Below, piece by piece: positions 1,758 through 61,505 of a stretch of DNA of 64,000 nucleotides (its first letter is position 1; each line of letters starts with the position of its first letter). This DNA comes from Ceratodon purpureus (taxonomy: Eukaryota > Streptophyta > Bryopsida > Pseudoditrichales > Ditrichaceae). Position numbers and translations under genes: made by a program. Location: contig CM026426.1 in assembly GCA_014871385.1 (NCBI GenBank), forward strand, positions 41,519,779 through 41,583,778. The letters are read 5' to 3'. The notes below the pieces were generated by a model. That model worked only from the letters and a program-made list of their open reading frames with translations. It was not told where the DNA came from and searched no databases.

Positions 1758-2208
1758 CATTAGGGGAAGTTTGGGGTCTCCAACGGGCCTTTTCCATGTT
1801 TTCTGTGCCTCAATTTTTGCCACGCCCGTGCACTTTACCTGCTGGCACCAATGGTGCCAGCAGGTCGCCAAATGCTGCCAGTAGTGCCAGCAGTTGGCAT
1901 TTGGGGGGTCCAGCCAATCGCTTCCCTTCCCCACCCCACCCCACCCCACCCCCCCATTGGACAATACAAGCAGTAATGACACTGTCACCGACCGTGTGCC
2001 CACTGCTGTCACCCCATTGGTCAGTACCGGATCCTGTAGTCAGTGGATCCTGTTGTCAGCGAATCCTATTGTCAGCGGGGCGAATTTTGTTGTCAGCGGG
2101 CAGGATATTGACCAATGAGATTTCGAAGAGAAGTGTCAGCGGGCAGGAAGCTCACCTAATCCGGGCTGTCTTACAAGGCTCGTTGGAGACCTGATTTTTC
2201 CCCTAATG
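1758..2208 (-). mobile_element. MITE, copy 1 of the CATTAGGGG family
   Basis: A 451-bp non-coding element. Its left end is CATTAGGGGAAGTTTGGGG and continues into GTCTCCAACGGGCC; its right end is the inverted match, finishing TTTTTCCCCTAATG. Inside are GCTGGCACC/GGTGCCAGC palindromes and repeats of TTGTCAGCGG. It is the reverse orientation of the copy at 61108-61505, and its two ends match the two ends of the large element at 37790-48724. The ORFs across it are chance. No clean target duplication is visible. Confidence 0.8.
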
Positions 2209-28927: not shown

Positions 28928-31198
28928 ATTACAGTGTTTCGCGACATTACGGAGTTACTGGGTTTAGGTTTAACGAGGACCGTGTGGTGGGGAGAAAAAC
29001 TGCGCTACAGATGTGGAGAACCGCGATGGCCGCCGAGGAGCGGAGCTACCCCGTTATCCTTCGCTACATGCAAAATAGCGTTCTCCAACAATCATCCCTC
29101 CGTGTCACATTTCCGTCCACCGTACGTCAGGCACGGTTATAGAACAGGAAGTCACAACTTTACAGTCGTTTTAGGGCTCCGAAATGGGAGGGGTCGCGGA
29201 AACAGGCCGGCATACCGTAGTCTTTCTCTTCGTACCCTGGGCACTTGGATCTTGAATTCTGTGCAGTGACGATTGATGATTGCACTGACCGTTTTGGAAG
29301 TGTGCTGGTGGTGAGTCGTGACGGAGGGTTTAGTTGTGTTTAAGCATCTTGTGCGGTGACATGGTTGGTTTTTCTTTATATTTACTGCTTTCCTACCTGC
29401 ACTTGGTCTAATTCTTGGAGGATTGTGTATCTACGTTTTTCTTTTGGATTACAGGGTTTTAGGGTATCGCCTGCAAGGTTTTGAAACGCTTAGTTTGGAA
29501 ATCTTAGAGCTCATCTCCATTGAGTTTTCGATTGGAATACCTCTTTTGGTGAACTTCTAAGGTTAAGTTCTAATTTCTCTTGGGAGCTTTAGGCTGCAGA
29601 TTTTGCACATGAATTCACCTAGGTAGCGGATGGTAGCTGTGGTAGACTGAACGTCCTCAAACATCCCCTAACCCGCTTCATTCATTTCGAGTCTCAGTGG
29701 TGGTTAATTTTATGCGACTTTAAACTCGCTGTCGCTGCCGTGTTCACTCTCGTGTGCCTAATCTATATTGGGCTGTTACAAGCTGCGGGCGACCTCTGTA
29801 GTCCTCAGGAGAGAGGTCGTTTGACACTTTTTGGCTGCTTAAATTACAGCTCAGTATTTCTAGAGCAGTCAGGCTCTATTGTCGAAGTACTCGAAAAATT
29901 CTAGTTCTCCTTTGCCTTCCTTTGTCTTGCACCTGCATTTCCCTGCACTCGGATCCTTTTACCTTCCTCTGAATCTCGTTGGGGCTTCGCCAGCGTGATG
30001 TAATCGGCGACGTACAGTTCGCACATACCTACGTGTCAAATTTCTAAGATCCACGTACGTTGTCTCCAATGGTGAAATGTTTGCTTCTGCTTGTGGTATA
30101 AGATTGCTTCTGCGTTTGACACATACATGCTAGTCATTGCAGTATGATTCGTACATGCGTCAGCAACCCCTCGTTTGTGCTCAAGATCAGGACGTTCTAG
30201 GAGCTGTAGGTATATTTATGTAGGGTACTGCGATCGCACGACGGAGTATTTCAGCATCCCAGCTCCTCTCTTGAGCGCGTGCTGTGACATTTAGTTGCTC
30301 TTAAGCATTCAGAGCTATTCCGAGAGTACAGTCTCAAACAATGCATTATGCTAGCAGATAATAGTGAACTATTACTCCAGTTGGGCATGCTGCCGGACTG
30401 GTTCTCTTTCGCTATAATCCCTGTTGTCGACATTCGTTTGCGCCAGCACTATGTGGACACTCGACTTATCAACGATTTTGGAGACCTTTTATTTTTGATA
30501 GAGCAGGGGTGTCGGATGTTTGTGTATGTGCAATGAGGTATTCTGATCCTCAAATTATCGTTCCATTTGAGTATTGTAGGACATGGACTTGCTTTGCGCC
30601 ATCGCCTTTTCCGTGTTGTCAGCAGCAGTCTACTAGTCGTTTCGGAGTTTAGGATAGATACGTGGGAGGCTTGAGCAAATGATATGAGAGAGAATCGAAT
30701 TGTGGTCGTTAGAGCAGCGTCATGTTGTACCTTTGAAGGTCAGGTGCATGCGGAATGCGTCAAGAATAATAACTTTCGGACGTCATAACATGTATAATTT
30801 CTTTTTCTTTTTCTTTTTTTATCTGATGAGGTCAATGAGGTCTTACATGCATTTTGTGCTCCATTCTTACAGCAGTTAGCCTTTATTTTGCAGCGGAACT
30901 ATACACCTTGTGGGGATGTTTAAACTTTTTTGGAGCAGCGATCACTGCAAGCATATATGCACAAAATATTTGGATATCAGAGATATAAAACGCAGGGGAT
31001 ATTGTGTTTTAAGGAGCTCACTCTTTGGTTGATGTGCTGAGTTCAGGTGATTTGTCAAGCTCTGACTTTAACACCATGTATCCGCAAGCAAAAATTGAGG
31101 TGTATGATGGGTGAATTCTTTTGAGGTGTGATATGTTCACATCTCAAATTGAGACATTCCTGCAGCTGTGAATAGCTGGATACCCTAGCTATTTTGAG
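28928..31198 (+). other. Upstream / leader region of the GRAS gene
   Basis: About 2.3 kb between the hAT element and the GRAS start codon. It contains no long ORF and no recognised repeat. Pyrimidine-rich tracts with possible GT-AG intron borders and several short upstream ORFs suggest a promoter plus a long, perhaps spliced, 5' leader. No TATA box or transcription start could be fixed with confidence. Confidence 0.4.
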
Positions 31199-33973
31199 AT
31201 GTCTAACTGCTTCGAAGTTTTGGCGAGGTCTGCCATAGTTAGTGCGAAGAGGGAAGGTTGCGACCAGCTGGGTCAAGGGTATATATCACCACTCCACAAT
31301 ATTAAGCTAGAGTGGTCGTCAGGGATGAGCAGCCCTTGTGATGTGGGGCACGATTTGAATCCTTTTCAGTTCCAGTACATGGGTGATGGCCTGAATGGCA
31401 GAAGAGGGCTCAATCAGCACCATCAGCATTATCATTCCAAGCAGTTAAATCAAGGGGGTGCCTTCGTGAGTGCCAGTGAGGTAATGAAAGAAACCACAGA
31501 TGTGTCAACGGAGAGCAGCGTGGTATACAATGCATGGGGCAGTCATGACGGAGGTGGTACCCTTCTAGAGAATAGAAGGATAAATCTTTTGAAATCCGTA
31601 GAAGAGCAATGGTGGGTAGATGTTCTTGCTTCAAGGTCGATGGTAATTCCGTCTACCCTCTTCCAGCAAGAGAACATTGCATGTGTGGAGTTTGGAGTCC
31701 CTAGGCATCAAGTTGAAGATCCTCGTTGTATGGCACTTACCCACTCGGAAGATTCGGCAATCGTGAAGTGGCTCTCGGGTGATGGGCAAATTCATGGGCA
31801 AAGTGAAATCCAGCGCGCTCAGACTACAGGAGATATGGACAATGTGATGTTTGAGCAAGATTTGCTGAGTTCAAACCAAACTCAATTCGGTCAACATCTT
31901 GGTGATGATTTGCTGAGTAGTCATGGCCTACATGATCTCAATTATAGAGAGACCTTCTCATCTCATCTTAGTTCCTCCATTTCTCATCCTCCCGCTTCCT
32001 GTGAACCAAAATCTGATTCCAAATTCTTACATGATCATACATCCCTCCCACGTGCTTTTACTTTTCCGTCTCCTGTGCATGATATTTCACTCAACCTCGC
32101 CAATCACACTGGGGTTTCTGCTTCTATGATTGCCACCCCTTTCCTAAACATGGATGAGCCAGGTGGCCCTTCAGTTTCTGCAACAGCTCCTGTTGTTGGT
32201 GCTACGCGCTTCTCTCCGGATGCATTTTCTACAGCAGAGTATTATGCACAATATTTCCTGTTTGGAAATTCCACATCTGAGGGCCAGCTTTCTTACAGGA
32301 ACACCAACGCAGTGCATCAAACTAGTTTGCTGGTTGACGAAGGTCCGGCTGTCCTGCGGGGGATTCTACCTACTTCACCGTCGTCAGTGCATTCTTTATG
32401 TCCAAATATGTCATCCTTCACGTCAGCGTACTTCCACCAAGAGATCGACAAGTTGTTTGAAGAGAGGAGTCCCTTACAGCCGGTAATTTCTTCATTGGCC
32501 ATCGCCGATTCCCCATCCCAACAGATATTAATCCCTCCAGCGATGTCTGGTGAGTATCCGATTTCGCCACAGCTCTCTTGGAATCTGGAGAAGATGCCTT
32601 TTCAGTTGCACCAAAGTTGTCAAGAGAACGGGAGCCCGAAAGTGAATTGTGCCTGGAAGGCAGACACTTTGCAGGATTGCGTCGGTGGAGCCTTTTCTCC
32701 CCTGCCATCTGCTTCTAGTTTTAGTCTGAGTTCTAATCATACGGGTCTAAGTGCTTATTATATAGGAGACGATCGGAAACATGAGGATGCGAAGCTGGAT
32801 ACAGGGCAGATGGAGGGAGGAGTTATTCCTGAAGGTGGACTCACTATTGTGCATCTTTTACTGCGTGCAGCTGAGGCTGTGGATATTGGTAATGTAGATA
32901 TGGCTAAAGCGATATTGGCGCGGCTCAATCAGCACATCTCCCCAAATAGGGAAAAATCAATTCACCGGGTAGCTCACTACTTTTGTGAAGCCCTGGTTAC
33001 ACGAATAATTGGTGTGGAGAACTTGACGACCCAATTGTTTCAGAATCGGACTTTGTCCTCCATTGAAGAGTTTCACAGAATCAATGCCTATGTCCGCTTT
33101 TGTGAAGTCTCTCCGTACCCAAAGTTCGCTCACTTCACGGCTAATCAAGCAATCTTGGAAGTTTTAGAGGGTGAAGAAGCAATGCATGTCATTGACTTTC
33201 AGATGGGTGCAGGTGCTCAGTGGGCTTCTTTCCTTCAAGATATAGCTAGCTTGAGGACTGCTGGGAAGTTAGTCCCCACGATACGTTTGACAGCTGTAGG
33301 AACTCGGGCCGACGAAATCCATGTGACAGGAGCAAACCTTTGCAACTTTGCTCGAATGTTGAATATATCTCTTGAATTCCAGGCAGTTGTCACTAGACCT
33401 GAATGTCTTGATGTCTCCATGCTAGGGTTACGGGACAACGAAGCAGTTGCTGGGAACTTCATTTTCAGTCTCCACGAGCTTTTGGATGGGGAGACGTCAG
33501 ATGGTTTATCAGCTGTCTTAAAGTCTGTGTTGGATGCACGGCCCAGAGTTGTCACCACCGTGGAGCAGGAGGCGAACCATAGCAGCACGTCTTTCCAGCA
33601 GCGATTCTCTGAGGCCTTGCAGTACTACGTTTTCCTGTTCGATTCCCTTACAAGCTCACTCCAGGCTGGTGCTGACTCCTCTGCCAACTCAGGTATCGAA
33701 AGTTATCTTCTTGCACCAGAGATCATGAATATAGTTGCTTGTGATGGTGTTTCGCGGGTGGAACGCCACGAGAGATTAGAACAATGGAGGGAGCGAATGC
33801 TTGCTGCTGGGTTCAGTCCCCGTCCTTTAAGTGATGCCTCATTATTCCAGGCTGAAAAACTAGTATCCCAAATCTCCGCGCGGCATGGGTTTCAAGTTTC
33901 TCGTGATCAGGGAGGCCTTCTTCTTGGCTGGCAAGGCCGCCCTCTTTTGGCTGCGTCATCTTGGATATGCTGA
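31199..33973 (+). CDS. GRAS-family transcription regulator
   Basis: A single open exon of 924 codons. Residues about 1-545 are Ser/Asn/His-rich and probably disordered. The GRAS domain fills about 546-924. Leucine-rich region I is VHLLLRAAEAVDIGNVDMAK then ILARLNQHISP; the VHIID motif is MHVIDFQMGAGAQW (about residue 662); LRII/PFYRE-like NFARMLNISLEFQAVV follows; then EQEANHSSTSFQQRFSEALQ, RVERHERLEQWRERM, and the SAW end GWQGRPLLAASSWIC. The N-terminal half of the domain resembles HAM/SCL6-type proteins, while the C-terminal part (VEQEANH, GW..RPL) is closer to the DELLA/SCL style, so the subfamily is uncertain and it may be a lineage-specific early-diverging type. GRAS proteins act in the nucleus as transcriptional regulators, usually through DNA-binding partners. 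The first ATG was chosen; later Met codons (about residues 43 and 61) are possible starts. Confidence 0.92.
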   Translation: MSNCFEVLARSAIVSAKREGCDQLGQGYISPLHNIKLEWSSGMSSPCDVGHDLNPFQFQYMGDGLNGRRGLNQHHQHYHSKQLNQGGAFVSASEVMKETTDVSTESSVVYNAWGSHDGGGTLLENRRINLLKSVEEQWWVDVLASRSMVIPSTLFQQENIACVEFGVPRHQVEDPRCMALTHSEDSAIVKWLSGDGQIHGQSEIQRAQTTGDMDNVMFEQDLLSSNQTQFGQHLGDDLLSSHGLHDLNYRETFSSHLSSSISHPPASCEPKSDSKFLHDHTSLPRAFTFPSPVHDISLNLANHTGVSASMIATPFLNMDEPGGPSVSATAPVVGATRFSPDAFSTAEYYAQYFLFGNSTSEGQLSYRNTNAVHQTSLLVDEGPAVLRGILPTSPSSVHSLCPNMSSFTSAYFHQEIDKLFEERSPLQPVISSLAIADSPSQQILIPPAMSGEYPISPQLSWNLEKMPFQLHQSCQENGSPKVNCAWKADTLQDCVGGAFSPLPSASSFSLSSNHTGLSAYYIGDDRKHEDAKLDTGQMEGGVIPEGGLTIVHLLLRAAEAVDIGNVDMAKAILARLNQHISPNREKSIHRVAHYFCEALVTRIIGVENLTTQLFQNRTLSSIEEFHRINAYVRFCEVSPYPKFAHFTANQAILEVLEGEEAMHVIDFQMGAGAQWASFLQDIASLRTAGKLVPTIRLTAVGTRADEIHVTGANLCNFARMLNISLEFQAVVTRPECLDVSMLGLRDNEAVAGNFIFSLHELLDGETSDGLSAVLKSVLDARPRVVTTVEQEANHSSTSFQQRFSEALQYYVFLFDSLTSSLQAGADSSANSGIESYLLAPEIMNIVACDGVSRVERHERLEQWRERMLAAGFSPRPLSDASLFQAEKLVSQISARHGFQVSRDQGGLLLGWQGRPLLAASSWIC

Positions 33974-37789: not shown

Positions 37790-37823
37790 CATTAGGGAAA
37801 AAATGGGGTCTCCAACGGGCCTT
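37790..37823 (+). repeat. Terminal inverted repeat, left
   Basis: Begins CATTAGGGAAAAAATGGGG; 31 of 34 positions match the inverse of the right end, differing at positions 9, 12 and 14. Confidence 0.85.
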
Positions 37824-38716
37824 GTAAGACAGCCCGGATTAGGTGAGCTTCTTGCCCAAAAACCCCTCTGTTGCTGTCAGCAGGGGTCTGAAACGCTGCC
37901 TGGAGCGGCCTTTTGGAGACGGACGGGAGCTGCGTGGCTGGGTTTTGCCTCGTTGGCGAGAGGGCGTGGACGGTGGTTGTTGAGCGCCAAGGAGTGGAAT
38001 TTATTGCTCTGCGATTAATAAACTGCCTCAATCCGTTGCCTCGATCCACGGATTGTTCGACTTGTTGCCACAACGGTTTGGGCGTGATGGCGCCACTGGC
38101 TCTACGCCGTTCAGCACCAAGAAAACCAAGCGCCCTGTTCTGCTTCAAGCAAATCGTTTATGGCACTGTGGGACGCAGAATTGTATATGATTTGCTCCAA
38201 AGATTCCGAGTGGCGATGGCGCCCCAGATCGGTGGAGCAAACTTGAGATTCCGATTAATTTCTTGGCAGCGTCCGCTGGCAGCCACGGCGGCGAGGGGTC
38301 GTTCTCAGTTGGCAACATTGGCTTCAACGAAGAGATGAAAACTGACGTACTTGAAGGGAAGGTGAATTGCCACGATAAACCTTTGTGGGGTGTTTAGGGG
38401 CTAGTGGGTTTTAGAGCAATTTGAATTTCGATTTCATTAGGCCTTGCTGCCACAACGGCATAAGGCAACGTAGGTTTCGTGGTCGACAGCGCTTGTAGAT
38501 GCCACGCAGGTCTATCGAATTAGGTTCCGAGTATTTGTGATTGTGAATTTAGTCGTCAAGCAATAATTATCATGGTTGAGAAAATTTGCTAATACTTTAG
38601 TCTTTCATTGGGCGTAGGAGGTGTCCCAAAATCATAACAAGTTTTGTCGATTACCTGCAAATCACCAAGCGTGACCAGGGGAGATTCAATCAAGACTACC
38701 GACTATCGGGTCCACG

Positions 38717-41700
38717 ATGGCAGCAAGGGCTGCACGAAGCAATGAGTACATACCCCAAGTTTCACTGGACGCACGCTATGCCCCGGTCATGAGACGAGGT
38801 TCTACGCAAGTGGAGCTGTGCATGAGGAGCTCGTTTCCAACACGGAGGTTGCGTGGAGACACGAACATTGACTTGTAGATCAATGGAGACATTTACCCTG
38901 TTGATCCAGTGACAGGGAAGCCACCTCCAATCAAATTGCTAAAAGAGTTCATTGAATTCATATGTCATAGAGAGCACGGTCTTTGCGGATATACATACAG
39001 GCTGCTGGATCATTGTGTACATGGTCCTACAGAGGAGGAGACGGGGATCCAGTTGGCAGAGTTGAGCGAAGAAGTGCTTCAGCTTAGAGGCGAAGCTCTG
39101 GCCAGCAACTCAAGGGCAGCCGAAGATGTCCAATTGGAGAGAATGCGTTGCCTTGAGTTAGAGAAGACATGCACGGATTTGCAAGCTGAATTACAGGTTG
39201 TCCGTGATTGCCATGCCCAAAGGCTGGAGCAGTTGGAGTGCCATGTGCGGGGTCTCAAAGAAGACGTTGACCGCTGCCAGCGGAGGGCCAACTTCGAGAA
39301 GGAGACCCCCATAGGCATGCGAAGTAGGATTCGGGCTCTTAGAGGGATTCACGAGCTAAAACCTGGATCAGGTGGATCAAAAGCAAGAGTGGAGCTTGTG
39401 CGGACAGTGCTGCAACCAGATGTAGTGCAGTTTGTTGTCCACAGGAACGGAGAGAACCGGAAGTGCTCTCGACTTTGGGGGGATAAAGAGTTCCAAAATA
39501 GGACTGCAGTAGCACTAGCTCGAATTCTATCACGGCATGAAGGTGCAGCTCTAGCTTCTCAGCCTGCAATGGCACATGTTCAGTCAGAGATTGCGAACAA
39601 TGTACTTAAATCGATTGGTAAGAGTATTGGACCGGACAAAATTCTTGCTGCTTGCGACCAGGCAGGGGTTTTCCATTGGGGATATGGTGCTCTCTACAAA
39701 TCTGTGAAGGCTCCCATTGCTGGTCTGAACAAAGGAGTCTCCGGGAGTATTTCGCTCAGCCTCTATCATGTGAAACTGCTTCGTCAGGAGTTAAATGCAA
39801 ACTTGCCACAGTATATTGGTGAATATTACCATGCTGAAGGTCGACTTACGCTGCCAGCAAGTTCTAAGAAGAACAAGAAGTCTGAGGACATGGTAAAGGA
39901 AGTCGTTTTGACTGAGAAGAATTCCCTATTCATAGACCTTGAGGTGGTCCAAAGAAGCATGGTGATCTTCTACAGCATCACGGAAGAAGGTAACGTAATC
40001 ACCTCAGACTGTTGTTTTCAGAGTTTGCTGTCAGCAGGATTATTTATCAATTAACTATGCCCTCACATCCACTCGCCATGTTTCCACAGAGATAAGAGGG
40101 GCATCGCTGGTATTTGTCATGAAATTGGACAAGGCCGAGATTGTGAATGGCAAGAAATTTGAACAGGTCAGCATCACGTTGATGAATAAGGCGCTCAACC
40201 CAGACATTCAGAGGAACCATGCCCTGTTTTTCTCAGTCCAGTCGGAGTAGGAAATCTGGCCAGTGGCAACCTTTCAAGTGGAAAAAGAGTCCTACGAAGT
40301 TCTCTCGTAGATATTTGGGAAATCCAAATTTCCCTCTGTGATGGCAGCACAGTCTAGTGGCGAGAAACTCACGGTCCCTGAAGTTGGAGAATTCGATGTG
40401 GAGTGGCATCTCGCTGCGGACATGAAGACGATCAAGTGTATGTACGAGCTTCAGTCGGGGCCGTCGTGTGCAATGAACTGCATATACGGCGAGCAGAAGA
40501 GGGCTAAGCCTGCCGTAGGGACAGCAAGCCAGGCGAGTGCTGCCATCAGAAAACGTGGGAAACCGAATTGGGTGGGGTGACTGTTTGCCAACTCTGTGGA
40601 GCCAGAACCTTGTGACATGCGTGCACATACAAGGTGGAGGCTTATCTTGCCAATTCCATTGCAGAGAGTGCACATTTGTACACTCCATGCCCTAGTTTGA
40701 TTAGCGGAGAAGATTGTGCATCAACACATCATTTATATCTGGAACATACAAGATCAAAGACTGAGGGCTACAACAATAGAGCAAATGGAGAAGTCCTTGT
40801 CAGCTATCAGGGCTCACGGTGGCAACGTGGAGATTAGAAAAGATCCGAAACTGAGTGGCAGCACAAGGAGTGTGCCACAGAAACCATCTTTCAGTGGGGT
40901 TGTTGCCAGCTGACTATTTAAACCAAGCGTTTGGTCTGGAAACGACAAGGCCTGGAAAGACATATGTCAAGCAGAGAACAATAAAAGTGGCGGCGGTGCA
41001 CATCGTAGGGCGAGGGCTGCTATGTGGCAAGCCTTTAAAGACGTTCTACCATATTTGAGCGGCTTGGTGCTGACAGCAGAACAACGACTCTAGTTCAAAG
41101 GGAAGATAGAAATGTGGGGGAGAACATTTTTGGAGGCCTTTAGAGAGGAGCATCTGTCGCACTACATGGTGAGTTATATATACGAAGTTTGGGATGAATT
41201 AGGGGTCGATGGCTGACCTTATTTTCTTCAATTCTCATTCCAAGACTAACCTTGGAGTGGCTGTTGACAGCATGTACTTGTCAGGCATGGCAGTTGGTTT
41301 GTGGAGGAATACGGTAGTCTGGCCGTATGGAGTTGCCAGGGTATGGAGGAATCCCATCATCAAGCGAAGGCAGCGAATCAAGCGCATACAGCTCATGGTG
41401 GTGGCAAAGAGCGCATCAGTGTTATTTTGCAACAATTCCAGCATTGGTACCGAAATATACAACATCGGTATAAGAAGAAATTAGAGTGCACCAGGGTTCT
41501 CAATACCCCAGATGATGAGGCAAGATTGGAGGCTACGCGTAGAAGGCGAGAACAGTGGCATCGATCAAATGCTGCGAGGGCTTTGGAGAATTGGCGGTCA
41601 AGGCGACGGCGTGTTGGCAGAGCTTGGGTGTGTGATAACACCGTCGGAGGTGGTGGAGCCAACAATGCTCAAGCAAGAGGTTCTGCCAACGAAGATGACC

Positions 41701-41810
41701 CCGGGGAGGATGGCAACAATGTGGATCCTGAGGAAGGTCGCAACTCCACTGACGGTGACGACGTTGGCAACAACGTGGACAGCAATGACGCTGGCAACGA
41801 CCCTGTGTGA
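38717..41810 (+). pseudogene. Large DDE-type transposase, full length with seven nonsense codons
   Basis: Exons 38717-39989, 40090-41168 and 41271-41810 join in phase (963 codons). Seven in-frame stops interrupt it: TAG at 38876, 40248, 40308 and 41091; TGA at 40578, 40698 and 40911; no frameshift. Residues about 106-190 form a coiled coil. The core reads LVFVMKLDKAEI (Asp about 438), WHLAADMKTIKCMY (Asp about 535) followed by a Cys-rich CAMNCIYGEQ, then VHICTLHALV, and, after the last intron, HYMHVLVRHGSWFVEEYGSL then WSCQGMEESHH (Glu about 810). This order (D, D with Cys pair, HGS...QGME) recalls a broad class of eukaryotic DDE transposases found in large DNA transposons; I cannot name the superfamily. 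The C-terminus is Arg-rich, then Asp/Asn-rich. It would cut and move the element by its CATTAGGG ends. The catalytic assignment is inferred by eye. Confidence 0.65.
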
Positions 41811-42934
41811 ATTGAGTACAATGCGTTCTTACTTCATTGGATGGACATCTAGAATGTGGCAAGATTTTTTTATTTTTTTATTTTTTTGATCGGAGTAGAC
41901 ACTGATTCTTCTTTGAACATGTTTTTTGGTTTCATTCTAGAATAGCCATTTACAGATAGATTTATCAAAAAATGGAGATTTTTCCCAGCAATTCTCTAAA
42001 ATGGCTTATCCATTGCTATGTTAATCTCGATAATTATTAAAGAGGCACCCATGGAGAAGGTAGTAACTCCATTGACAGTAAGGTCGCTGGCAGCAATGAA
42101 GACAGTGACGATGCGAGCAATGGCCGTGTGTGTTTTGACCGCAATGTGTCTTAGTAATTAAGTTGTAGCTATGTAGAATGTGGGTGGCAACAATGTGTTT
42201 CTTTTAATTGGGTTAGACCATGGTTCTCCCTTCAACTTGTTTTGTGGATAACTCACGATAGTGCCTAGTCCATGAAATTAGTAATCTCCTTAATTAATGG
42301 GTCTTAGTAATCATATGTACTGGTCACGCTAAAATTAAGATTTTAATTTCTGAGATGATTTTCTAAGTACCCACATCAAATGGGGATGTGTGGTTTAGGG
42401 CCATGGCAATGATTTGCATGGAGTGGCAATTAAGGGGGATATGAGAGCTTCCCACCAACTCCTTAACCTCCCTTCATTAAACTCTATTTGAGACTCTCAA
42501 CCCCCTCTAACCAAGGACGCACAGGTGGTTGACTCCAGCACGGATTCCCTTCTCTTTTCTCCTCTTCTTCCCATACGTCGCACGTGGTTGACTCCAGCAG
42601 AAGTCCGCGCCTAGCGAAGCCGAAGCCTCTCCCCTTGCTTCCAGCAAGTGCCCGAGCGGTTTCTTGTTCTTTCAATTGGTGTTGTGGGTGCCGGGGAGAG
42701 ACCGTGGAGGAGAAGGAGGCCGTCTTCGTGCCGTTGATGATCGGGAGAAGCCTCGAAGAGCAGCAGCCTTGCCACCAAGAACTCCTTCGAGCCATTGCGG
42801 TGTGCAGCTCGAAGGAGGTGCAGCGTGAGCAGCGGGCCGTGGAGGAGGGGGCAGCGGAGCTCAGGCGCAAGGTACGTGCAAGTGAGCTGCAAGGAGCTGA
42901 GGAGGGAGCTGCGGGGCACAAAGGCAAAGGGCGC
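41811..42934. other. Intergenic part of the large element
   Basis: No supported gene. Near 42050-42150 there is a degenerate repeat of the transposase 3' end (codons for GNN-type Asp/Asn/Gly sequence). The ORF starting at 42584 runs straight into the minisatellite and is judged non-genic. Confidence 0.4.
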
Positions 42935-43285
42935 AAGGAGCTGCGGAGGCGCAAGGGGCTGCGAGGAGCTCCGAGGAGCTGCGGAGGCGAGCTATGGAGG
43001 CCGCAAGGTGCAAGCTGCGAAGGCCGTGAGGGAGGAGCTACGGAGGCCGTGAGGGGTGAGCTGCGGAGGCCACGGAGGCAAGCTGCGGAGGCGCAAGGGA
43101 CGAGCTGCGGAGGCGCAAGAGAGTAGCAGGGGAGCTGCAGAGGCGCAAGGAGGCGAGCTGCAGAGGCGCAAGAGGCGAGTCGCGGAGGCCGCGAGGGGCG
43201 ACTTGCGGAGGCGAGCTGCAGAGGCGCAAGGGACGAGCTGCGAGGCGCGAGGGGCGAGTTGCGGAGGCACGAAGGCGCAGACTAC
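42935..43285 (+). repeat. GC-rich minisatellite, about 20-24-bp units
   Basis: Repeated units close to GAGCTGCGGAGGCGCAAGGG, with variants (GGAGCTGCAGAGGCGCAAG, GAGGCCGCGAGGGGCGA), roughly fifteen copies by eye. The array makes long spurious ORFs on both strands. Confidence 0.8.
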
Positions 43286-43562
43286 TTACGACTTCGGCGA
43301 GGTAAGTTGCCGGTTTTTTGCTCTCTCCTCTTCGCATTATGATTTTCCAGTTGAGTTGGAGTGATTCGGCCATGCCAAAGTCGTGAGGGCCCAAGTTCAG
43401 CCATGGCCGCCACAGTCCTCGGTTCTATAAGTTTTTTGGATAAACAATTTAACTAGTCTAATCCGCAAGAATAATCCATTGCTTGTGGTCTTTCGTTTTC
43501 CAGTTGCCATGCGCGATCCCTGTATTGTAAAATCTGTTGTATTTGCACTACCAGCGCCAGGG

Positions 43563-45240
43563 ATGTCGAGCCGTAGGAAGGGAAAGGCCGCGGCTCCTCG
43601 GGAGGAGGATCGCACTGAGAAGAAGGAGGTTGTGGTGAAGAAGGAGGTCGTTGAGGTTGCTGACAGCAAGGAGGAGGAAGGAGTTGAGACGCCATGGGAT
43701 GATGCGTTTGATTTGGAGGCATTACCCCCTGCACTTCATAGACAGCTCCACCACCTCGCCCCATTTCTGCTGGGTAGGCAGGCTGCGGATTACGATGAGG
43801 ACTTCTTCCACCGCACCTTGCAGCTCTCCAACAAGGGGCTCAAGTTCAGTGACCTCAACAGCGACAAGCATTGCAGGAAGGCCGACTTCATCGACAGATG
43901 GCCAGAGCGTTCTTCTGGGCGGCACTACGTTGCTGACTGTGAGGATCAGGAGGCACAGAGGAATTACTTGGAGATATACCGATAGATCTATGGAGGTGAC
44001 CCCGACAATTGGGCATTCGGGACCTCCTTCCTTCGGGCTTGCCACCTCTTCTTTGAGGAGGGCGTCTATGTCAACTTTGCCAGAAGGCGGAGGCCCTTTA
44101 GAAGGGGCGTGAGACGCTGCCAGGGCGTAATCCGCAGAAGTTGACACCCCCGGCCTTGAAGGAGCAGATTGAAGCCATCATCGACTTCGTTGCTGGCCAC
44201 ATCCCCGGTGCTGGCAGCAAGGGCAAGGGCGGAGGGGCGGAGGCGAGCTGCGGAGCCAAGGCAGTTGGAGCCACCTCGAAGGCCTTCACGGCAGCGAAGG
44301 CGAAGAAGGTCAGGGATCCTAGATCCCTGCCCGCTCTTGCCAAGGCCGTGGCGGAGAAGAAGGCCGTAAGACCCTAGCTGTCGTTGCCATCAAGGTGCAG
44401 CCCTTGGTGGCAACGGATCCGAAGCAGGTCCTGTAGCAGCGCGCCTCAAGAAGAAGTTATTGGAGGCGGCACTTGTGAAGGTGGAGGCCAGCCGGGATCG
44501 CGTGAAGGTCGACCTTGCAACCTAGCGGGACTACATCAAGGCCAAGGAGGCCGAGGAGTCCAAGCTCTACGACGACATCTTCTCCGCCCGCGAGGCCGCC
44601 GGCGAGGCCGCGGCTGATGGCAATGATCAAGAGAAGAGGCGCTTTGATCAGGCGGCCCGCTTAGGCCAAGACAAGTTGGGGCTTGCAAGCAAGGCTCTCC
44701 TTGAGGCCCAGGCCCACATTGATAGGGTCTACAAGAAGTTGGAGGAGATGGAAGCCGATGAGCAGAGACGGCATGCTGAGGTCTCCGCGCTCACAGCGGA
44801 GATCTCGGCCTTGGAGTTGGCATCAGCTTTCTTGCGGCCGAAGAAGGTGTTGGCTCGTTACCTCCGGGAGTTCCAGGTGTTGCCAATAGCCCTGAATGAC
44901 CCATGCCCCTTCTGCGAGCGTTACTTCGTTGACACCTGCTGCATACCTTTGTTCTGCGGCTGCTTGGCACATCCCCATTGTATGTTTGAGGCAGTCTTCT
45001 CCTAGGACGCCCGATGCCGTCGATGCGAGCGGGGGATGAGTGGAGGATGAATTGGGCAGTGGGGCTTTGACCTTGACTCCAAGGCCGCAGAGGAATTGCG
45101 TCTTACGGAGGAGATCCTCCTGGCCGAGCCCGCTTCACCACGTGCTGGCAGCAAGCGCCCCGCTGCCCCCTCTGTGGCCGCGCTTCCATGGAAGAAGGCC
45201 AAGGGCGACCAAGGTTTGTTGCCCCTAAACCTACCTACCC
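43563..45240 (+). pseudogene. Coiled-coil / RING-like protein, decayed
   Basis: Starts MSSRRKGKAAAPREEDR at 43563. A conserved-looking block follows (FDLEALPPALHRQLHHLAPF, RKADFIDRWPERSSG, then TAG at 43983, then IYGGDPDNWAFGTSFLRACH). Frameshifts occur near 44135 and 44380-44440. The next block is a long coiled coil (44440-44830; VKVEASRDRVKVDLAT, TAG, RDYIKAKEAEESK; KALLEAQAHIDRVYKKLEEM). It ends in a RING-like cluster: CPFCERYF, CGC, HPHC, then TAG at 45003 and CRRC. The cysteine/histidine spacing matches that of the protein at 17375-19954. The tail (PASPRAGSKRPAAPSV) is basic. Possibly an accessory protein of the transposon; function unknown. Confidence 0.45.
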
Positions 45241-45539
45241 ATTGCATGTTGCCAGCCCCGTTGTTACATCCAAATGTTACTTCTTTTCTAATTCTTGTTT
45301 GTTGGCAGCAACTGCAGAGGATGCTCTCCCCGACTCAGACTCCCTGGCGTTCGATCCCACGCAACACTCTCCTCATGAGACCCAGGCAGCCCTATCCGGA
45401 AATGGGAACAAGGACCAGGTGAAGGTGAGAAGAACGAGGACAACACCAACATGGAGGGACTGTCGAGCCTTGTTGAGGAAATTGCCACAAATGCAGCCGT
45501 GGAGTAGATTCCCACCTTGGATAGTTTTCTAGGCCGGGT

Positions 45540-46780
45540 TAGGGGTTTGCTGGCAGCGACTGTAGGTCCGGACTTTTATGGGCCACTTTTCTCAAACTTT
45601 TCCAAAGTTGAAAACAATTTGCCTCTGGAGTGCCATGTCTCTTTGAAAGAAATGACATTCTTGTAACCCTTCTTTTTTATTTGCAACTGTATTTCTTCTT
45701 TATTGTGGACTGCCCACAGCAAGGGCTGCATTTTAGCCGCCATTTTATCTTTCAACCTGTTGTTCTCTTCAAGCCCGCGCTATCTAAGAGCCATGGCCGT
45801 CTTTGAAGTTCTTCCCTTTGTATTTCCCTTCTAATATGCAACCACCGTCCATTTTTTATTTGCAAGCTTTTTTGTTCTTTTTTTTTGGCGACCTCATTTC
45901 ATTAATCGCAACCATGGTTGCTTTTAATATTTGCAAATGTTATTATTTTCCATATGCGACCTACTTCATCTCTTATGTGCAACTGTTTTTTATTTTTATC
46001 TTATTCAATTAGAATCAACCGTGGTTCTTTTTTTATTTGCAACCTTCCTTTTTTTTCTTGTTGTTGGCAGCAAGGGCTGCATTGTACCCGCCACTGCCAA
46101 TTCAGAGCACCAGGTTCACGAAGGAGCCAACGTCTACGACCAAAGTGACAAACTTTACATTCCTTCCTATTTACTTTATACTTGTCAAGTGCCAAATTCC
46201 ATTTTGTGTTTGCAACTCATGTGGTCTCTTGTTTGCAATTGTTTTTATTTCTTATTTTGCGCTAGCACCAGGCTCCACCGTCAATGACGCCACCACAAGT
46301 TATAAGCAATTTTCCAATTCAGACCTGGGCTCTCTGAAATCTAGGCCATTCTATAGACTCCCTATATTTTATTTTATTTCTCATTGGCACCGTAGGATTC
46401 ATTTTTTAATTGCAACTGTCTTTGTTTTTTATTTCCGCTGGCAACACGTAGATCGAGGGCACTTCAAATTTGCCGAATATAACACATTAATAGAGGAAGT
46501 CCCACAGAAAGTCCTGAATAGTAAGCAAAACCACTACCTGAATTCACTAACGACTTGGCGAAGAACTTCATGACATCCCACATATTGTAACTACCCATCC
46601 CCAAAATCACTTTTCCTACAGCTCTACAATCTTGATCCTTTTGGGAACCATGACATTTGCAACTGTAAGGTGTCTCTCATGGCACTCGTTGATCTGCGCC
46701 CAACAAATCCTGTCATTTTCGTTTGTTGGCAGCAAGGAGCTTCGAACAGCCAATTCCCAACACATCTAAACCACACGATG
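45540..46780. repeat. T-rich region with recurring TTTTTATTTGCAAC modules
   Basis: A motif near TTTTTATTTGCAACTG recurs about seven times between 45675 and 46420, 60-180 bp apart. Two stretches TTGTTGGCAGCAAGG (46064 and 46722) and one CCCACAGCAAGGGCTGCAT (45714) look like copies of a 3' splice-site-like junction. It may be a series of intron-like fragments or a degenerate tandem repeat. No protein could be assembled. Confidence 0.4.
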
Positions 46781-46787
46781 AATTCGC

Positions 46788-47955
46788 CTAGACTCGTACC
46801 TTTTCCTCACGAACACCATTGGCCTCTATCACAACCAGGTTGTACTGCCCAGGTACGTCATCTCCAAGTGCCATTGCAATTTCGTGCCGCAGGTGGGATA
46901 CTGGCCAACCCTTGCCAACTTCGAATGTTGGCAGCAGGTTCCCCCTAAACATACAAGATACTTCCACCATCACCTCCTCTGGTAGGTGATCCATCGCTTC
47001 CCACTGACTGTTGGCAGCCCCCCTATAGCTTGTATACATGAACCTCGTGTATAATGTTTGTCTTTCCACGTGATAGCGGAAATCAATGCTGGTCCTGTTG
47101 GCAACGCACTTGATGACATCTTGGCCAATGTGGAACTTCTCGTTCCACCCTGGGTTCATCAGACTGCTCAGCAGAGCCTCGGATGGACTATTCAAAACAA
47201 ACAGTGTAGGTGTCCGCCTCATGCTGTCAGCAGCTACCGCAAACAAATCAACCATAAAATGGATTGGCATAAACCATTGGTGGTGGACGAAGCTGCTACC
47301 AGTTGTTGCTTTCATAGCATTTGCAAAATCGAAAGTGAGCTTTGTTCTAAACGCCTCAGATGTGTGCATGTCTGGCAAAAGGCCACTCCACATCGTTGAA
47401 CCCTGGAAGCGGGAGTGCTTCAAGCTTCTTGTACAGCGTGTCACCTGTTGGAGGCAAATACAGACCACCAAGGAAGAATGTACCTATATCCAGCAACTCC
47501 GCGTGGCTCTGTCGATTCCGTGTTGCCTCCCCAATCTCAACATGGAGCACAAGAATGGAACCAAGGATAGATGCGGGATGTACCCACTCCCCCGAAAGCG
47601 ACGCGTGTAGGTAGTTTTCCATATCCAACTTGGTTGCTGCCTCTGCGGGATCCAAGCGCAGATGCCTTGGCTGATATGCATGCTGCACAAGCACCTTATC
47701 GAGGTCGCATGCTCCATGCTCCGTGGAGATCCAGGAGAAATCTCTGATCAGCACTTTGAAGGCTCCTCAAAAAATTTCTCCACCATGTCGCCTTGCCTGT
47801 CTACCCCAAGGACCATCCGATGCTGGTTGCAACATAATCCATGAATCACGATCCACCTTCACGGGGATCCAGTTGCCCTCCAAGTCTTGAGTGTTATGCA
47901 GGATGACACTCTGTACGAGGGAGTTTGGCCGTGTAGCCATATCACTAGAATGCAT
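46788..47955 (-). pseudogene. Unknown protein family, copy A (inside the transposon, intronless)
   Basis: Minus strand from ATG at 47955 (MHSSDMATRPNSLVQSVILH) to the stop at 46788, about 390 codons. One TGA near 47767-47769 (where copy B has Arg) and one single-base insertion in a T run at about 47376-47380 are the only breaks. Shared blocks with copy B (50458-51925): GNWIPVKVDRDSW / GEWIPTRYERMSW; SILGSILVLHVEIGEATRN / SILGVILVVHSDVGEATRN; PDMHTSEAFRTKL / PDRHTSEAFRAKL; DSMRRTPTLFVLNSPSEALL / DSMRRTSTLYIVENPSEEVF; FEVGKGWPVSHL / FEVGQGWPLSHI. No introns where copy B has two. No domain recognised. It lies antisense to the other element genes, as cargo or as an element gene. Confidence 0.6.
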
Positions 47956-48690
47956 GAAATTTTTGACTGTGAACTCAAAAACTTACAAATGTTGTTGTCG
48001 CTGTCATCAACCACGAGAACTACATGCTGTCAACACACCCTCCGCCATCACAAACGGCTAATTCCGACGTCCACGGCGTCGCAAGCAAGGTACGACCTAC
48101 CCTAAACCTCATCCCGAAACCCCAATTCCTAATTCAGGTACTCTCTCCAACCTATGTGGATGCCAGACCGCTGGCAGCGCTTGGGAAACCACTACAGCTA
48201 AACCCTAAATCTCTATTGCACAATGCGTGACCACCCACAACCCAAATCAAAAAACCTGATGAAGCCTTTGGAGGCCTCCACTGCTCTATCCTGGTTGGCA
48301 ACGCAACCGCGACAACTCTCTGACAGGAACCCATGAAGTTTAGAATGACCGTTGGCAGCATTTCGACATCAACACCTTCTGCACGTTGCATCTCAAAGGG
48401 AGAGCGACAACTCGATTTCGGTAGGTGGCCAAAGTGAGACAGTTTTGCAGGAATTCATAAAGCCGACCACCGCTGACACCCTTCTGCAATGCTCGGATTC
48501 CGTGCGTGAAGAGGCCCTGTTCTCGACCTGCGGGACTACAGGATCAGGGGGAGAGAAGCCTTCCTGCGCGACTACTGGCTGGACCCCCCGAACGCCGATT
48601 TGGCGACCTTTTGGCGACCTGTTGGCAGCATTGGTGCCAGCAGGTAAAGTGCACGGGCATGGCCAAATTTTCAGGCACAGATTCCGACCA

Positions 48691-48724
48691 AAGGCCCGTT
48701 GGAGACCCCAATCTTCCCCTAATG
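48691..48724 (-). repeat. Terminal inverted repeat, right
   Basis: Ends CTTCCCCTAATG, inverse match of 37790-37823. The inner flank (GCAGGTAAAGTGCACGGGCA and on) is shared with the MITE at 61108-61505. Confidence 0.85.
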
Positions 48725-52600: not shown

Positions 52601-54660
52601 TCAACCAACAATAGAATTACCAAAACCAAATAACATAAACAAAAATACACACAACAAAATTCAAGTCATTCACAATTCAAACAAATGCCAAGGCTTCCGA
52701 ATGGAAAAAAATTACTTACCATGTGCAAACATGCACAATTACAGCATGAACGTCTATCCCCAGTAATGGGATAACACCACACTCAAGGAAAACAAAATAA
52801 AAAATAAAATAAAAAATAAAACAAAGCAACAACAACCAAATGCAGCCTCGGCTTCTTCAATCAACAGCCAGCCAGCAGGCACCTGCCCAGCCTTCCTTCA
52901 CCGTCCCAATCTCCCACAATTTGTCTCGAGATTGACCAACAACCAAAAAAAAAAATTAAAAGAAATAGAAAAAAACAACCAACCAACCGGCCACCACCCC
53001 CGGCAGCAGCCTCTCAAGCACCAAGTCTTCGACACTGCCGAGCAGATTCCACCTCGAACCAACTCCTTGAACCAGAGCAACTGCTCACATCATTGCAGCC
53101 TCCTCAGACCACATGCAACTCCTTCGGCCAGCCTTCGGCCTCCCATCAACTCGAATCCCAAGCTCACCAAGCGAACTCCACCAGCAGCCTCGGAATTGGA
53201 ACAACCAAAATAAAATAGAACAAACTAACCTCCAGCTGAATCCTCGATTCAGTCCACCAGCTCCCCACAAACAAGCTCCCGAGCCTCCATTCAACGAACC
53301 ACATTTCCGCGGCTCCTCACACCGAGCAACTGCCCCCGAGATCCTTCCCCGATTGCAGCAGCGGCACTCGCCCTTCAGACCCGGCTTCCAATCGAAAATC
53401 TTCCGGCTAAGTCACCTGATCCTTGCAGCTTTCAACCAGGCACCGCACCAAGCAACCAGTAAACGAGATAAAGGACCACCAACAAGCAAAATCAAAAACA
53501 AAAGTCACCGCAGCTCTTGCTGCAATCACCACCGGCACTCAACCCTTCGGCCAAATCTCCCACCAACCTTCCTTCTCAAATTTCCACCCAGCCTTCTCAC
53601 ACAGCAAACCCCCGTCCTCTTGAGCTCTTTGTCTTTCGCTGCAGCTGCTTGACACCGCTGCCCTTTGCTTCGAGAGCACCCAGCTTCCACCAGCGACTTC
53701 AAGAAGAAATTAAAAAAATTTGAACTCCACCGAGCCCTCGACTGCTCACGGTCTCCCTTCCCTTCGACTGTCCAGCAGCCTTCTCACCACCGCTGAATCC
53801 CAACCGAGCCAGCAATCTCTCTACTCTCAAAACTCCAACTAATCTAATTCTCACGCTCTCAAAACTAACACACACCACAATGCAAAGAGAGAGAGAGTTC
53901 TTCCACACACTCCTACGGCTACATGCACCACAGCTTCTCCCCTAACCTAACCCCCTCTAACCTAACTTTTCTCATCTACTAAGTCTCCAACCTCCATCCA
54001 TGCACATGCGCATGGCCCCAATTTCCCCTACCTAATCTATCTTTTTCCACCTCTTGACTTCGACTTCTCTAGTTAAGGAGAACTAGGATCCTCATCGGAT
54101 CAAGTCTCGTTTCCCTAACTAATTTTTTTGCTTCCCCAATAGCTCATCTTGGTTGCGCGCCCCGTCCATGAATCGTGGCGGCTGCATAAATGCAGCCGCT
54201 TGAGATCTTTAATTTTTGAGAATTAAAAATAAAATAAGGAATAGAAAATAAAAATTGGGATAATGAAAAAATAAGAATAAGAAAAGGAAGTAAAGGAACA
54301 ACGGAAATAAGATCTTAAGGAAAATTGGAAAAATAAAAACATAAAAATTAAAAGAAGAATTGAAATTTAAGGGGAGAAGAAAAATAAAAGATAAAGGAAA
54401 ATTAAAATAAAAATAGAAAATAGAAAATAGAAAATAGAAAATAGGAAATAGAAAATAGAAAATAGAAAATAGAAAATAGAAAATAGAAAATAGAAAATAG
54501 AAAAAAGAAAATAGAAAATAGAAAATAGAAAATAGAAAATAGAAAATAGAAAATAGAAAATAGAAAATAAAGAATTGAAGACTAGGGGTTTTAGAGGAAA
54601 TTAGTAAAAATAGAATGATTAATATTTACGAGTCTAACTAATATAACTTAGGTCAATTAT
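52601..54660 (-). repeat. Gypsy 3' noncoding / LTR-like block
   Basis: Lies downstream of the minus-strand gypsy polyprotein. In reverse complement it contains CCGATGAGGATCCTAG followed by CTAGAGAAGTCG (54062-54100) and TAAATATTAATCATTCTATT (about 54611-54632), the same anchors and order as 6390-6860. ORFs across 52900-53720 are Ser/Pro/Thr-rich and have no recognised homology. LTR ends were not delimited. Confidence 0.45.
54411..54569. repeat. Heptanucleotide microsatellite (GAAAATA)n
   Basis: About 22 copies of GAAAATA, with single-base variants (one GAAAAAA-type and one GGAAATA-type unit), inside a longer A-rich tract 54215-54600. Confidence 0.95.
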
Positions 54661-55149: not shown

Positions 55150-56870
55150 TACATTGATGGAACACCCTATCATATCTTCTACTCCTTGTATCTACTTCCT
55201 GATGTACGTGTCGGGAACAATTGCCCATCTAATGTCTCCAACTGGACTGCATTGGTGGTAAAAATCTCAGTTACACGGTATGGGCCTAACCATAAGGCAT
55301 CGAATTTTTCTGGGAAGTCTAACTTCCTAGCATCTTCAAGCATCACCAACATTCCAGAGAGTAGCCTCCGCTTCTTGTGGTACTTATCAAATACCATTTT
55401 GCGATGCCTCTGAATCACCTCAATGTGCTAAGCACTCTGTCTACAATCCTCATCCAACTTCTCCAAGCGCTCCAAACGACGAACCAAAGACTCCTTGTCT
55501 GTGAGTCTACTATCAAGCGCAATTCGAAGTGATGGCACTTCGAACTCAATGGAAAGGACGGCCTCTACTCCATAAACTAAGGAAAATGGAGTAGCCTGAG
55601 TAGTGACCTTGAAAGTAGTCCTATAGGCCCACAAAGCTGCTGGCAGCTTGTCATCCCAATCATGCTTGGAGTCTAAAACGGATTTCCTCAAGATTGTGGC
55701 CAAAGTCTGATTGACTCTCTCTATATTCCCATTAGTCTGAGGGTGGTAAGGTGTGGTCTTCCGGTGATCAATCTGGAACCGATGGGTGATCTCTGCCACT
55801 ACCTTGCCTAGAAAATGTTGACCTCTATCACTAACAAGGATTTTGGGGCAACCAAACCGAGCAATCACTTGCTCAAACAAGAAGATAGCGGCATTCTTCT
55901 TGTTGTTATCCTTCACAGCCTTAGCCTCGGCCCACTTAGTGAGATACTTAGTGGCCACGATGATATGTTTCATCTCCCTACTAGAGTGGGGATGAATCTC
56001 TCCAATATAATCAATCCCCCACTTCTCAAAAGGGACTAATGGACGAGAGACATGTAATGGAAGTTGCATGTGGAGCTTGTTACGGGCATAGTGTTGGCAT
56101 GCATCACAACGCTTAGCATAATCATGACAATCACGGAACAAGGTGGGCCAATAATACCCAGCTCGTAGCACTTTTTGGCCCATCAAGGTGCTAGAAAAAT
56201 GTCCACCACAAGCACTGTCATGGCAAGCAAAGAGAATAGCTGGGATCTCTGAAGGCTCTACACATCTCCGTAAAATTTCATCTACACCACGGCGATACAA
56301 GCGTTCACCGATCAAGGCAAAGTGGCGGCTGTTAATCAGCACCTTCCTTCTATCATGCTTGTTCAAGGTGTCTGGCAACTTCTGAGTTTTAAGAAACTCT
56401 GCAATATTCTGGTAGCAAATGGGAGTGACAGAGGCAAGAAACAAGTTCTCATCTACTAAACTATCATCAATAGCCGTGGTACTAGGCTCCCCCTCTAGTC
56501 TAGACAAATGGTCAGCCCTCAGTTGCTTCTTGCCAGGCTTGTACAAAACCTTGTAGTCAAATTCCTCCAACAATAGCACCCATCGTGCAAGCCGTCCACT
56601 CAACTCCGCCTTGTTCACTAAATACTTGATGGCCATGTGATCTATATAGAATACTACATTGTTCAACAACAAGTAGTGGCGGAATTTCTTCACAGAGAAG
56701 ACCATAGCCAAACATTCACGCTCTGTCGTGGTGTAATTTCTCTCTGCGGGGTTCAGCTGCCTACTAGCAAAAGCAATGGGGTAATCTTTACCCTCATCTC
56801 CACAAGCTTGGCACAAGGCACTACTTACCGCAATGGTGGAAGCATCACAGTAAACATGAAATGGTAACTC
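55150..56870 (-). pseudogene. gypsy RNase H and integrase
   Basis: Minus strand. RNase H: FHVYCDASTIAVSSAL, then TTTERECLAMVFSVKKFRHY and FYIDHMAIKYLVNK, with the acidic residues in place. Integrase: zinc-binding HDSACGGHFS with RCDACQ; catalytic WGIDYIGEIH, KILVSDRGQHFLG and NGNIERVNQTLATIL (D, D, E). The C-terminal part LDFPEKFDALWLGPYRV follows an in-frame TAG at about 55427 (SA, stop, HIEVIQRHR). A second TAG at 56871 separates this ORF from the reverse transcriptase. Together these proteins would remove template RNA and insert the cDNA. Confidence 0.9.
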
Positions 56871-57908
56871 CTAGTTTGGAGGCTTCAAGACATGATAGGT
56901 ACTAAGGCAAGTTTTGAGAGTGTCAAAAGCCTGTTGAAACTCTGGAGTCCACTCATACTTGACTGCCTTTTGTTGCAATTGGCTAATGGGGAGAGAAATG
57001 CTAGCATAATCAAGGATCAACTCCCGATACCATCCAACATGTCCCAAGGTTCTCTGAATTCCCTTGACATCGGTAGGTGGAGTTAATTTTGTTATCACCT
57101 TAACCTTCTCTAGATCTGGCTCCCTACCAGCCTTTGATACCACATAGTCTAGCAAAACACCCCTAAGGACTGCGAGGAAGATCTTGTCTGGATTAAGGGC
57201 AATGCGGGCCTTCCTACACCGTTTGAAGCTTTCACGGACACAAGGCAAATGGGAGACCTTTGAAGACTGAGTGCTAAAGTCATCAATGAATATGGTCATT
57301 GGTGTGTGCAATAAATCCGAGAAGGCATGAGTCATGGCCTTTTGGAACGCAGAGGGTGCATTGCACAAACCAAAAGGCATTACCACATAAATGAAAGTGC
57401 CCCAAAGAGTGGTAAAAGCAGTCTTGTGGTAATCATTAGGGTGAATGGAGATTTGGTTGTAACCAGAGTAACCATCCATAAAGGTATAGAGTTCATGGCC
57501 AGCTACCTCCTCTAAGATGGTATTTATGAAAGGTAGGGGGAAATGGTCTTTCTGAGTAGCTTGGTTCAACTTCCTATAGTCTATGCACACCCGAAATTTC
57601 CCATTCTTCTTCTTCACAATCACCATTGGTGAAACCCAATCTGTGATCTCAACTGGCTTGATGAAGCCAGCTTGGAGAAGTTTCTCCAATTCACCCTTGA
57701 CTATGAGCTGGAGTTGAGGATTCATCCTACGCTCCTTTTGACGAATAGGTAAATCACCAGGAACAAGGGGAATTCTATGTTGTACTACTTCTGGAGGAAT
57801 GCCCTTCATTTCCTTATAGGACCAAGCAAAAATGTCTCTATACTCCATCACCAAGGCTTTGTATGATTCTAACTCCTCTGAAGTAAGTTGAGCCCCTACC
57901 TTAATCAT
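56871..57908 (-). pseudogene. gypsy reverse transcriptase
   Basis: About 345 codons on the minus strand. Motifs: ISPMVIV-like (DWVSPMVIVKKKNGKFRVC), YRKLNQATQKDHFPLPF, FMDGYSGYNQI, MPFGLCNAPSAFQKAM, and TIFIDDF at the catalytic site (IDD in place of the usual VDD). The thumb ends LGHVGWYRELILDYA. It stops at TAG 56871-56873 (PPN, stop, ELPFHVYCDAS), where related elements usually have Trp, so TGG-to-TAG is likely. The frame shifts by one base against the upstream ORF at 57905-57908. Confidence 0.9.
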
Positions 57909-58333
57909 CTTAGGTTCTTCTCCATCAAAGAAACATCAAGCTCTTGCCAATCCTTTGGATTGACATGTGGTTGTTCAGTCGGGCTCTTGTAACAATCATT
58001 TGGAACAGGTGGATAGATGGGTAAGTCCTCTCCTACATAAATCCCAAAAGAAGTTGACCTAAAATGTAGAGGAGCCAGCAATGCTTCCTCATCTAGAAAG
58101 ATGTCCTTATCTGACAATTGAGTAACATCAAGCGTGACTCCATAGACATCCTCACATCGAATGTCATCTACTAAAGCAGCTAGATTGATCTCATCACAGG
58201 GCTCGTAGTCAATCTCTTCCATGAAAAAGGCATCCATTAGAGTCTCTGACTCTGAGATAGGATGATCCGCTAACCACGTAGTAAACTCTCCATCATCTTC
58301 CCATTCATAGAGCCCAGGGCCTAAGCAAGTCAA
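57905..58333 (-). pseudogene. gypsy pol linker between protease and RT
   Basis: An acidic 142-codon stretch (LYEWEDDGEFTTWLADHPIS ... SFGIYVGEDLPIYPPVPNDC) typical of the spacer before the reverse transcriptase in long plant gypsy polyproteins. It is in the same frame as the protease ORF, from which two stops (TGA, TAA at 58355-58366) separate it. Confidence 0.65.
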
Positions 58334-58363
58334 AGGAGCGGAGATTTCTTCTTTTTAGACTAC

Positions 58364-61107: not shown

Positions 61108-61505
61108 CATTAGGGGAAAAATGGGGTCTCCAACGGGCCTTGTAAGACAGCCAAAAGGTAGGTGAACTACTGCCCGCTGACACCTCTCTGCAAAATCTCA
61201 TTGGTGGATATCCTGCCCGCTGACAACAGAATTTGCCCCGCTGACAACAGAATCCGCTACTGTCCAATGGGGTGACAACACTGTGCACACGCTCGTTAAC
61301 AGTGTCATTACTGCTTGTATTGTCCAATGGGGTGACAGCAAAGGGCAACGCCTTCGCTGCAAGCAATTGGCTGGACCCCCCAAACGCCAATTTGGCAACA
61401 TGCCGGCACCATTGGTGCGAGCAGGTAAAGTGCACGGGCATGGCCAAATTTTGAGGCACGGATTCCGACCAAAGGCGCGTTGGAGACCCCATTTTTCCCC
61501 TAATG
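61108..61505 (+). mobile_element. MITE, copy 2 of the CATTAGGGG family, inside gag
   Basis: 398 bp with ends CATTAGGGGAAAAATGGGG and its inverse CCCCATTTTTCCCCTAATG. The inside matches the subterminal parts of 37790-48724 (GTAAGACAGCC at the left; GCAGGTAAAGTGCACGGGCA at the right) and, reversed, the copy at 1758-2208. Joining the bases outside it restores the gag frame (LPI then VVRAGLVAAA) with no base left over, so no target duplication is visible. Confidence 0.88.

Follow-up and report, generated by a model that had tools for sequence, protein, structure and literature searches.

A moss DNA transposon with a predicted RAG1-like transposase fold, flush insertion sites and a putative chromatin-reader gene

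What kind of transposon lies within a 64,000-nucleotide stretch of the moss Ceratodon purpureus genome (GCA_014871385.1, contig CM026426.1, positions 41,519,779 to 41,583,778; hereafter the window), and how does it enter its targets? The initial annotation of this stretch described an element of about 10.9 kb with terminal inverted repeats (TIRs), a transposase gene and further genes, accompanied by two miniature inverted-repeat transposable elements (MITEs). Our analysis makes it likely that this is a DNA transposon of the CMCT clade (CACTA-Mirage-Chapaev-Transib/RAG1), very probably Lanisha, on a moss UV sex chromosome, with a RAG1-fold transposase, a 0-bp integration stagger, chromatin docking by a BAH-like protein and regulation by a RING-like protein. 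Coordinates are given in Table 1.

We built ten further copies (K02-K11; K01 is the window's own element) from adjoining genome pieces. Both ends were present at the same borders in K02, K05, K07, K08 and K10 (7.3-11.3 kb); the interiors of K02, K05, K08 and K10 matched over most of their length, and K07 lacked the middle. Identity to the window element was 98.5-99.4% by segment for K02 and approximately 90% overall for K05, K07, K08 and K10. K09 (1.7 kb) was internally deleted with both ends kept, K03 was truncated, and the right end that it seemed to have is that of an adjacent or nested MITE, and no right end of K04, K06 or K11 was seen within the stretch fetched. Most copies listed terminated in CATTAGGG..CCCTAATG (5'-CA..TG-3'), with point variants in some; these terminus listings, like those of the flanks, still took in K03 and the MITE insertion L115 where present. 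Of the paired, inverted copies of both ends that the initial annotation proposed to look for, five further ones plus the deleted K09 were present, and the 10.9-kb element with its 34-bp TIRs was upheld. The same annotation would have been overturned if the two ends belonged to separate MITEs flanking unrelated genes, which failed because further copies share the same paired borders. The idea that unrelated host genes have been caught between two MITEs can appeal to the MITEs with the same ends in the window, but the matching interiors of four copies between the same borders, and the flush empty sites of K08 and K10 described below, leave it next to no probability.

Insertion was examined at paralogous empty sites. 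The queries were made by joining the two flanks of each insertion, first for nine MITEs, the last of them slightly shortened, and then for six element copies and two MITEs. From the 40 and 43 rows listed (the latter including the query loci), 20 and 16 junction-spanning sites were fetched, 36 in total. The junction was flush, with no base duplicated, lost or gained nearby, at 31 of these 36 sites, representing seven of eight insertions, among them the full-length copies K08 (three sites) and K10 (nine) and MITE 2 of the window. The remaining five sites all belonged to insertion L060, where one T of a T-T junction was missing, a difference of at most 1 bp. No spanning empty site was among the rows listed for the window element itself, K02, K03, K05 or MITE 1, nor for MITEs L059, L062, L063 and L064. 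At K08 and L066 the flanks share one letter and the empty sites keep both copies of it, which argues against a 1-bp target-site duplication (TSD).

The flanks were also compared in 44 pairs, a count that left out K03, with the right end of another MITE, and L115, which shares its site with L067. A match of at least 3 bp occurred in none of the pairs, where mispaired flanks would give 0.7, and one letter was shared in 16 pairs (11.2 expected). A symmetric target bias was centred on the junction, with T at +3 or A at -3 in 45 of 88 half-sites (p 1e-4 for T at +3, before correction for positions tried). Two other patterns were considered and set aside: a TA-dinucleotide TSD inside a CATTAATG target was ruled out by the empty sites, and long flanking repeats or palindromes were not the rule, since only L070 (79-bp duplication) and L061 (palindrome) stood out among 30 pairs. 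A MITE sits where a 79-bp tandem duplication begins or ends (L070, L079, L080). L115 (contig C30) and L067 (contig C4) are MITE insertions with matching flank letters in opposite orientation, possibly a redundant contig or a duplicated locus.

The flush sites are best explained by concerted integration into bonds that directly face each other. The rival view that this is an ordinary Transib or CACTA element, its TSDs of 3-5 bp erased by decay or scrambled by recombination, draws on the CMCT-type predicted fold and the CA..TG termini; we regard it as very improbable, given that none of the 44 flank pairs had a TSD of at least 3 bp and that 31 of 36 empty sites equal the joined flanks at the junction, an exact state which decay would not restore. 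Capture of the excised element by host end joining at random double-strand breaks, with the missing TSD a repair outcome, deserves somewhat more weight but is unlikely. Blunt ligation could formally yield flush joins that lack a TSD, and the signal ends made by RAG are blunt. However, break repair usually trims or adds bases, whereas none was lost or gained at 31 of 36 sites and seven of eight insertions, and the target bias is symmetric about the junction. Flush insertion may be unreported so far. No description of zero-stagger concerted integration by a RAG1-like enzyme was found in the available passages of the CMCT and TSD literature, and Spy, of the PHIS superfamily, were the only eukaryotic DNA transposons that we found described as lacking TSDs (PMC4482050).

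The transposase gene has three exons joined by GT-AG introns, and these give exactly the 963 codons first proposed, plus a stop; a DDE-type transposase in an autonomous-type TIR element is supported. The window copy contains seven internal stops, and in it Gly replaces the second Cys of the exon-2 C-x2-C site. Across an alignment of 78 rows the two cysteines (C131 and C134) are nearly invariant, and the H-x4-H site in the spliced frame was present in all eight copies for which exon 3 was matched. Exon 2 had 83 relatives in the database (33-96% identity), none with a precomputed Pfam domain; exon 1 had seven, with 7,996 candidates scored. The transposase gave no significant transposase match in Pfam, its profile found no relative by sequence in PDB, and no Transib or RAG1 chain appeared among the PDB matches up to E 10 (transposase profile A3). 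The predicted structure showed a RAG1-type catalytic fold. Harbinger-type and CACTA folds were absent from the fold-comparison list, which excludes neither.

The predicted fold and the motifs allow the transposase to be assigned to the CMCT clade, with the TSD as the exception. A C(2)C and an H(3-4)H motif lie between the second D and the E, and the termini are the 5'-CA..TG-3' of most lineages; the 0-bp junctions (at most 1 bp at five sites) match neither the 2-5-bp TSDs of the clade nor the 5-bp TSD of Transib. Two points weigh against the RAG1-like and BAH-like parts of our proposal: the predicted fold cannot tell RAG1/Transib from CACTA relatives, and Foldseek support for the BAH-like fold of the third gene lies above E 0.001.

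The element is probably Lanisha, because the authors of Lanisha overlap with those of the C. purpureus genome. McDaniel is reportedly the senior author of the genome preprint, and the part of its record available also names Carey and Maumus. The Lanisha superfamily proposal (Maumus, McDaniel and Carey, Repbase Reports 2020) is known here as a cited reference, and the accessible text of another study lists Lanisha in the CMCT clade, with its C(2)C and H(3-4)H motifs (PMC12730594). On the ground of this shared authorship we hold the assignment to be highly probable. The earlier suggestion of an undescribed family is probably wrong, given that proposal by Ceratodon genome authors and a transposase placeable in the clade.

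The coiled-coil/RING-like gene and the antisense gene noted previously do lie inside the element. In copy K05 a long open frame spans the second gene, which, including its RING-like cluster, gave no significant Pfam match. The third gene had 31 relatives (44-99% identity), and its structural model predicts a BAH fold; the BAH family was absent from the Pfam families listed for these 31 members, and the third-gene profile found no relative by sequence in PDB. Because its range of divergence resembles that of transposase exon 2, comparison of the two sequence sets suggests a long-standing core gene of the element, on the assumption that it occurs jointly with the transposase elsewhere. Of the "multi-gene cargo" described earlier, the several genes stand, but the status of cargo is doubtful, the divergence of the antisense gene (31 homologues) being much like that of exon 2 (83). 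A transposon-borne BAH gene was not apparent among six papers listed on BAH and transposons, judged from that listing, and such a partner gene may be unreported so far.

Copy K02 (contig C6, 41395580-41406382; L009, L010) lies 151 kb from the window element. It shares all six exon-2 stops of the window copy and has one more, and the flanks of the two show a single 31-bp match only. As the stops are the same and the flanks differ, the most economical interpretation is an apparent mobilisation in trans of a copy that had already been broken.

The two MITEs sharing the ends of the element are real. On the left side 45-68 bp are common to them and the element, and on the right side 138-159 bp; the 100-200 bp of shared subterminal sequence described earlier thus holds for the right only. 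Descent by deletion is likewise upheld in part: the ends are shared, but the core of MITE 2 (about 215 bp) found no match in the window's 10.9-kb copy, and on this comparison the MITE cores did not derive from that copy. The best 40 matching places of MITE 2 genome-wide, the window's own included, lay on contigs C1-C8, C10-C13 and the small C30.

Starting from the observed borders, MITEs, gene layout and stops, and from the flush insertion of sister copies and MITEs, we propose the following mechanism. A DDE transposase with the predicted RAG1 fold would bind the CATTAGGG ends, cut the element out and link its two 3' ends to target phosphodiester bonds that lie directly opposite each other, a cutting chemistry that we infer; zero stagger would leave no target duplication. 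The protein with the predicted BAH-like fold probably tethers the complex to chromatin, and regulation of the transposition complex may fall to the RING-like protein, both roles again inferred. The gene layout would recall RAG1 plus RAG2, and the window copy, although dead, could still be moved in trans.

Table 1. Features of the transposon and related MITEs (positions within the window)
Feature	Position	Strand	Details	Basis
Whole transposon	37790..48724	+	10,935 bp; CATTAGGG at 37790, CCCTAATG at 48724	TIR comparison and five further copies with the same paired borders
Left TIR	37790..37823	+	34 bp	31/34 identical to right end
Right TIR	48691..48724	-	34 bp	31/34 identical to left end
Transposase exon 1	38717..39989	+	N-terminal part, probable coiled coil; 1 in-frame stop	
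Transposase exon 2	40090..41168	+	Catalytic core; D438 (codon 40128), D535 (codon 40419), C-x2-C site; 6 in-frame stops	
Transposase exon 3	41271..41810	+	H-x4-H; proposed catalytic Glu E810 (codon 41346)	
Second gene, coiled-coil-type protein	43563..45507 (ends approximate)	+	Broken in window copy	
RING-like Cys/His cluster	44904..45026	+	CPFC...CGC..H..C...CRRC	Spacing read by eye from sequence
Third gene, first exon	46788..47940	-	Antisense, convergent; broken in window copy	
BAH-like domain, N-terminal in third gene	~47529-47934	-		Coordinates transferred from structural model
MITE 1	1758..2208	-	451 bp; reverse orientation relative to element	
MITE 2	61108..61505	+	398 bp	4/4 empty sites fetched flush

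Two motifs recur within the element. TGGCARC is spread over coding and non-coding parts at 40 sites, whereas 300 Markov simulations gave 5 on average and never more than 12, and its density outside the element, within the window, is 0.27/kb. Each of the five further copies in which it was counted had many sites (24-39; L009-L028). Its conservation, with 148 of 223 sites perfect against 138 expected from control 7-mers, was not clearly higher, and we claim no binding role for it. TGGCAGCA occurs 14 times inside the element and, once the MITEs are masked, at no other place in the window.

The window corresponds to 41.52-41.58 Mb of contig C6 (110,524,308 bp; 30.5% of the 362-Mb genome). According to the accessible text of a review (PMC8000587), the U and V chromosomes of C. 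purpureus are each larger than 100 Mb, roughly 30% of a genome of 360 Mb, and by exclusion C6 should be the V chromosome. Contig C6 held 22 of the best 40 left ends, 23 of the best 40 right ends and 8 of the best 40 MITE places (12.2 expected). We did not accept this as sex-chromosome enrichment of full-element ends; it is likely biased because only the best 40 candidates were scored and the query itself lies on C6.

Elsewhere in the window, a Ty3-type retroelement remnant adjoins MITE 2 (55428-60615, minus strand), with reverse transcriptase, RNase H and integrase matches above the cut-off and protease and capsid below it. Matches to the hAT dimerisation domain at 23426-24688 and 12743-14227, the second slightly below the Pfam cut-off, mark hAT transposon remnants. 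A GRAS-domain gene (31172-33973; 933-aa open frame) is apparently a host gene between transposons, and a tandem array of the 7-bp unit AAAATAG lies at 54410-54577.

Interest in RAG1-like enzymes stems from their place at the root of antibody-gene assembly; descriptions of RAG1 and Transib themselves come mainly from animals. If our account is true, the moss element would offer a way to ask which RAG features are ancient, what sets the spacing of strand transfer, and whether transposases were paired with histone readers repeatedly. The element also matters for annotation: a third-gene relative (44% identity) is deposited as a hypothetical C. purpureus U-chromosome gene, M758_UG279200.

CACTA elements are common in plants and carry a second gene, and Transib makes a 5-bp TSD. 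With CACTA/EnSpm, Mirage, Chapaev, Plavaka and ESTA, the moss element shares the CMCT motifs, as given in the available passages (PMC12730594); it differs from them in their published 2-5-bp TSDs and in a transposase without significant Pfam transposase match. Lanisha, as far as the sources at hand describe it, agrees in its Ceratodon genome authors, in being a cut-and-paste DNA transposon and in its C(2)C and H(3-4)H motifs. Spy, in the accessible text (PMC4482050), likewise lacks a TSD and has A at -3 and T at +3, but it belongs to another transposase superfamily and its AAATTT target is far stricter; at the moss sites only the T at +3 or A at -3 stands out. RAG1/RAG2, ProtoRAG (BbRAGL) and Transib share the predicted catalytic fold, the C-x2-C plus H-x4-H zinc site and the CA..TG termini, whereas PDB profile searches detected no sequence similarity to the moss transposase. 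These systems differ in their 5-bp TSD against 0 bp in the moss element, where moreover the RING-like part is in a separate gene; the moss Glu stands 20 residues after the last His, as in RAG1. The moss reader is BAH-like where RAG2 has Kelch-PHD, but both are encoded by a separate gene in convergent orientation, the moss gene being a probable chromatin reader. It is conceivable, though we put it at somewhat less than an even chance, that a plant transposon lineage independently reached a RAG1/RAG2-like layout, in which a transposase of RAG1 fold is combined with a RING-like protein encoded separately and with a BAH chromatin reader in convergent orientation, and that its integration is concerted with zero stagger.
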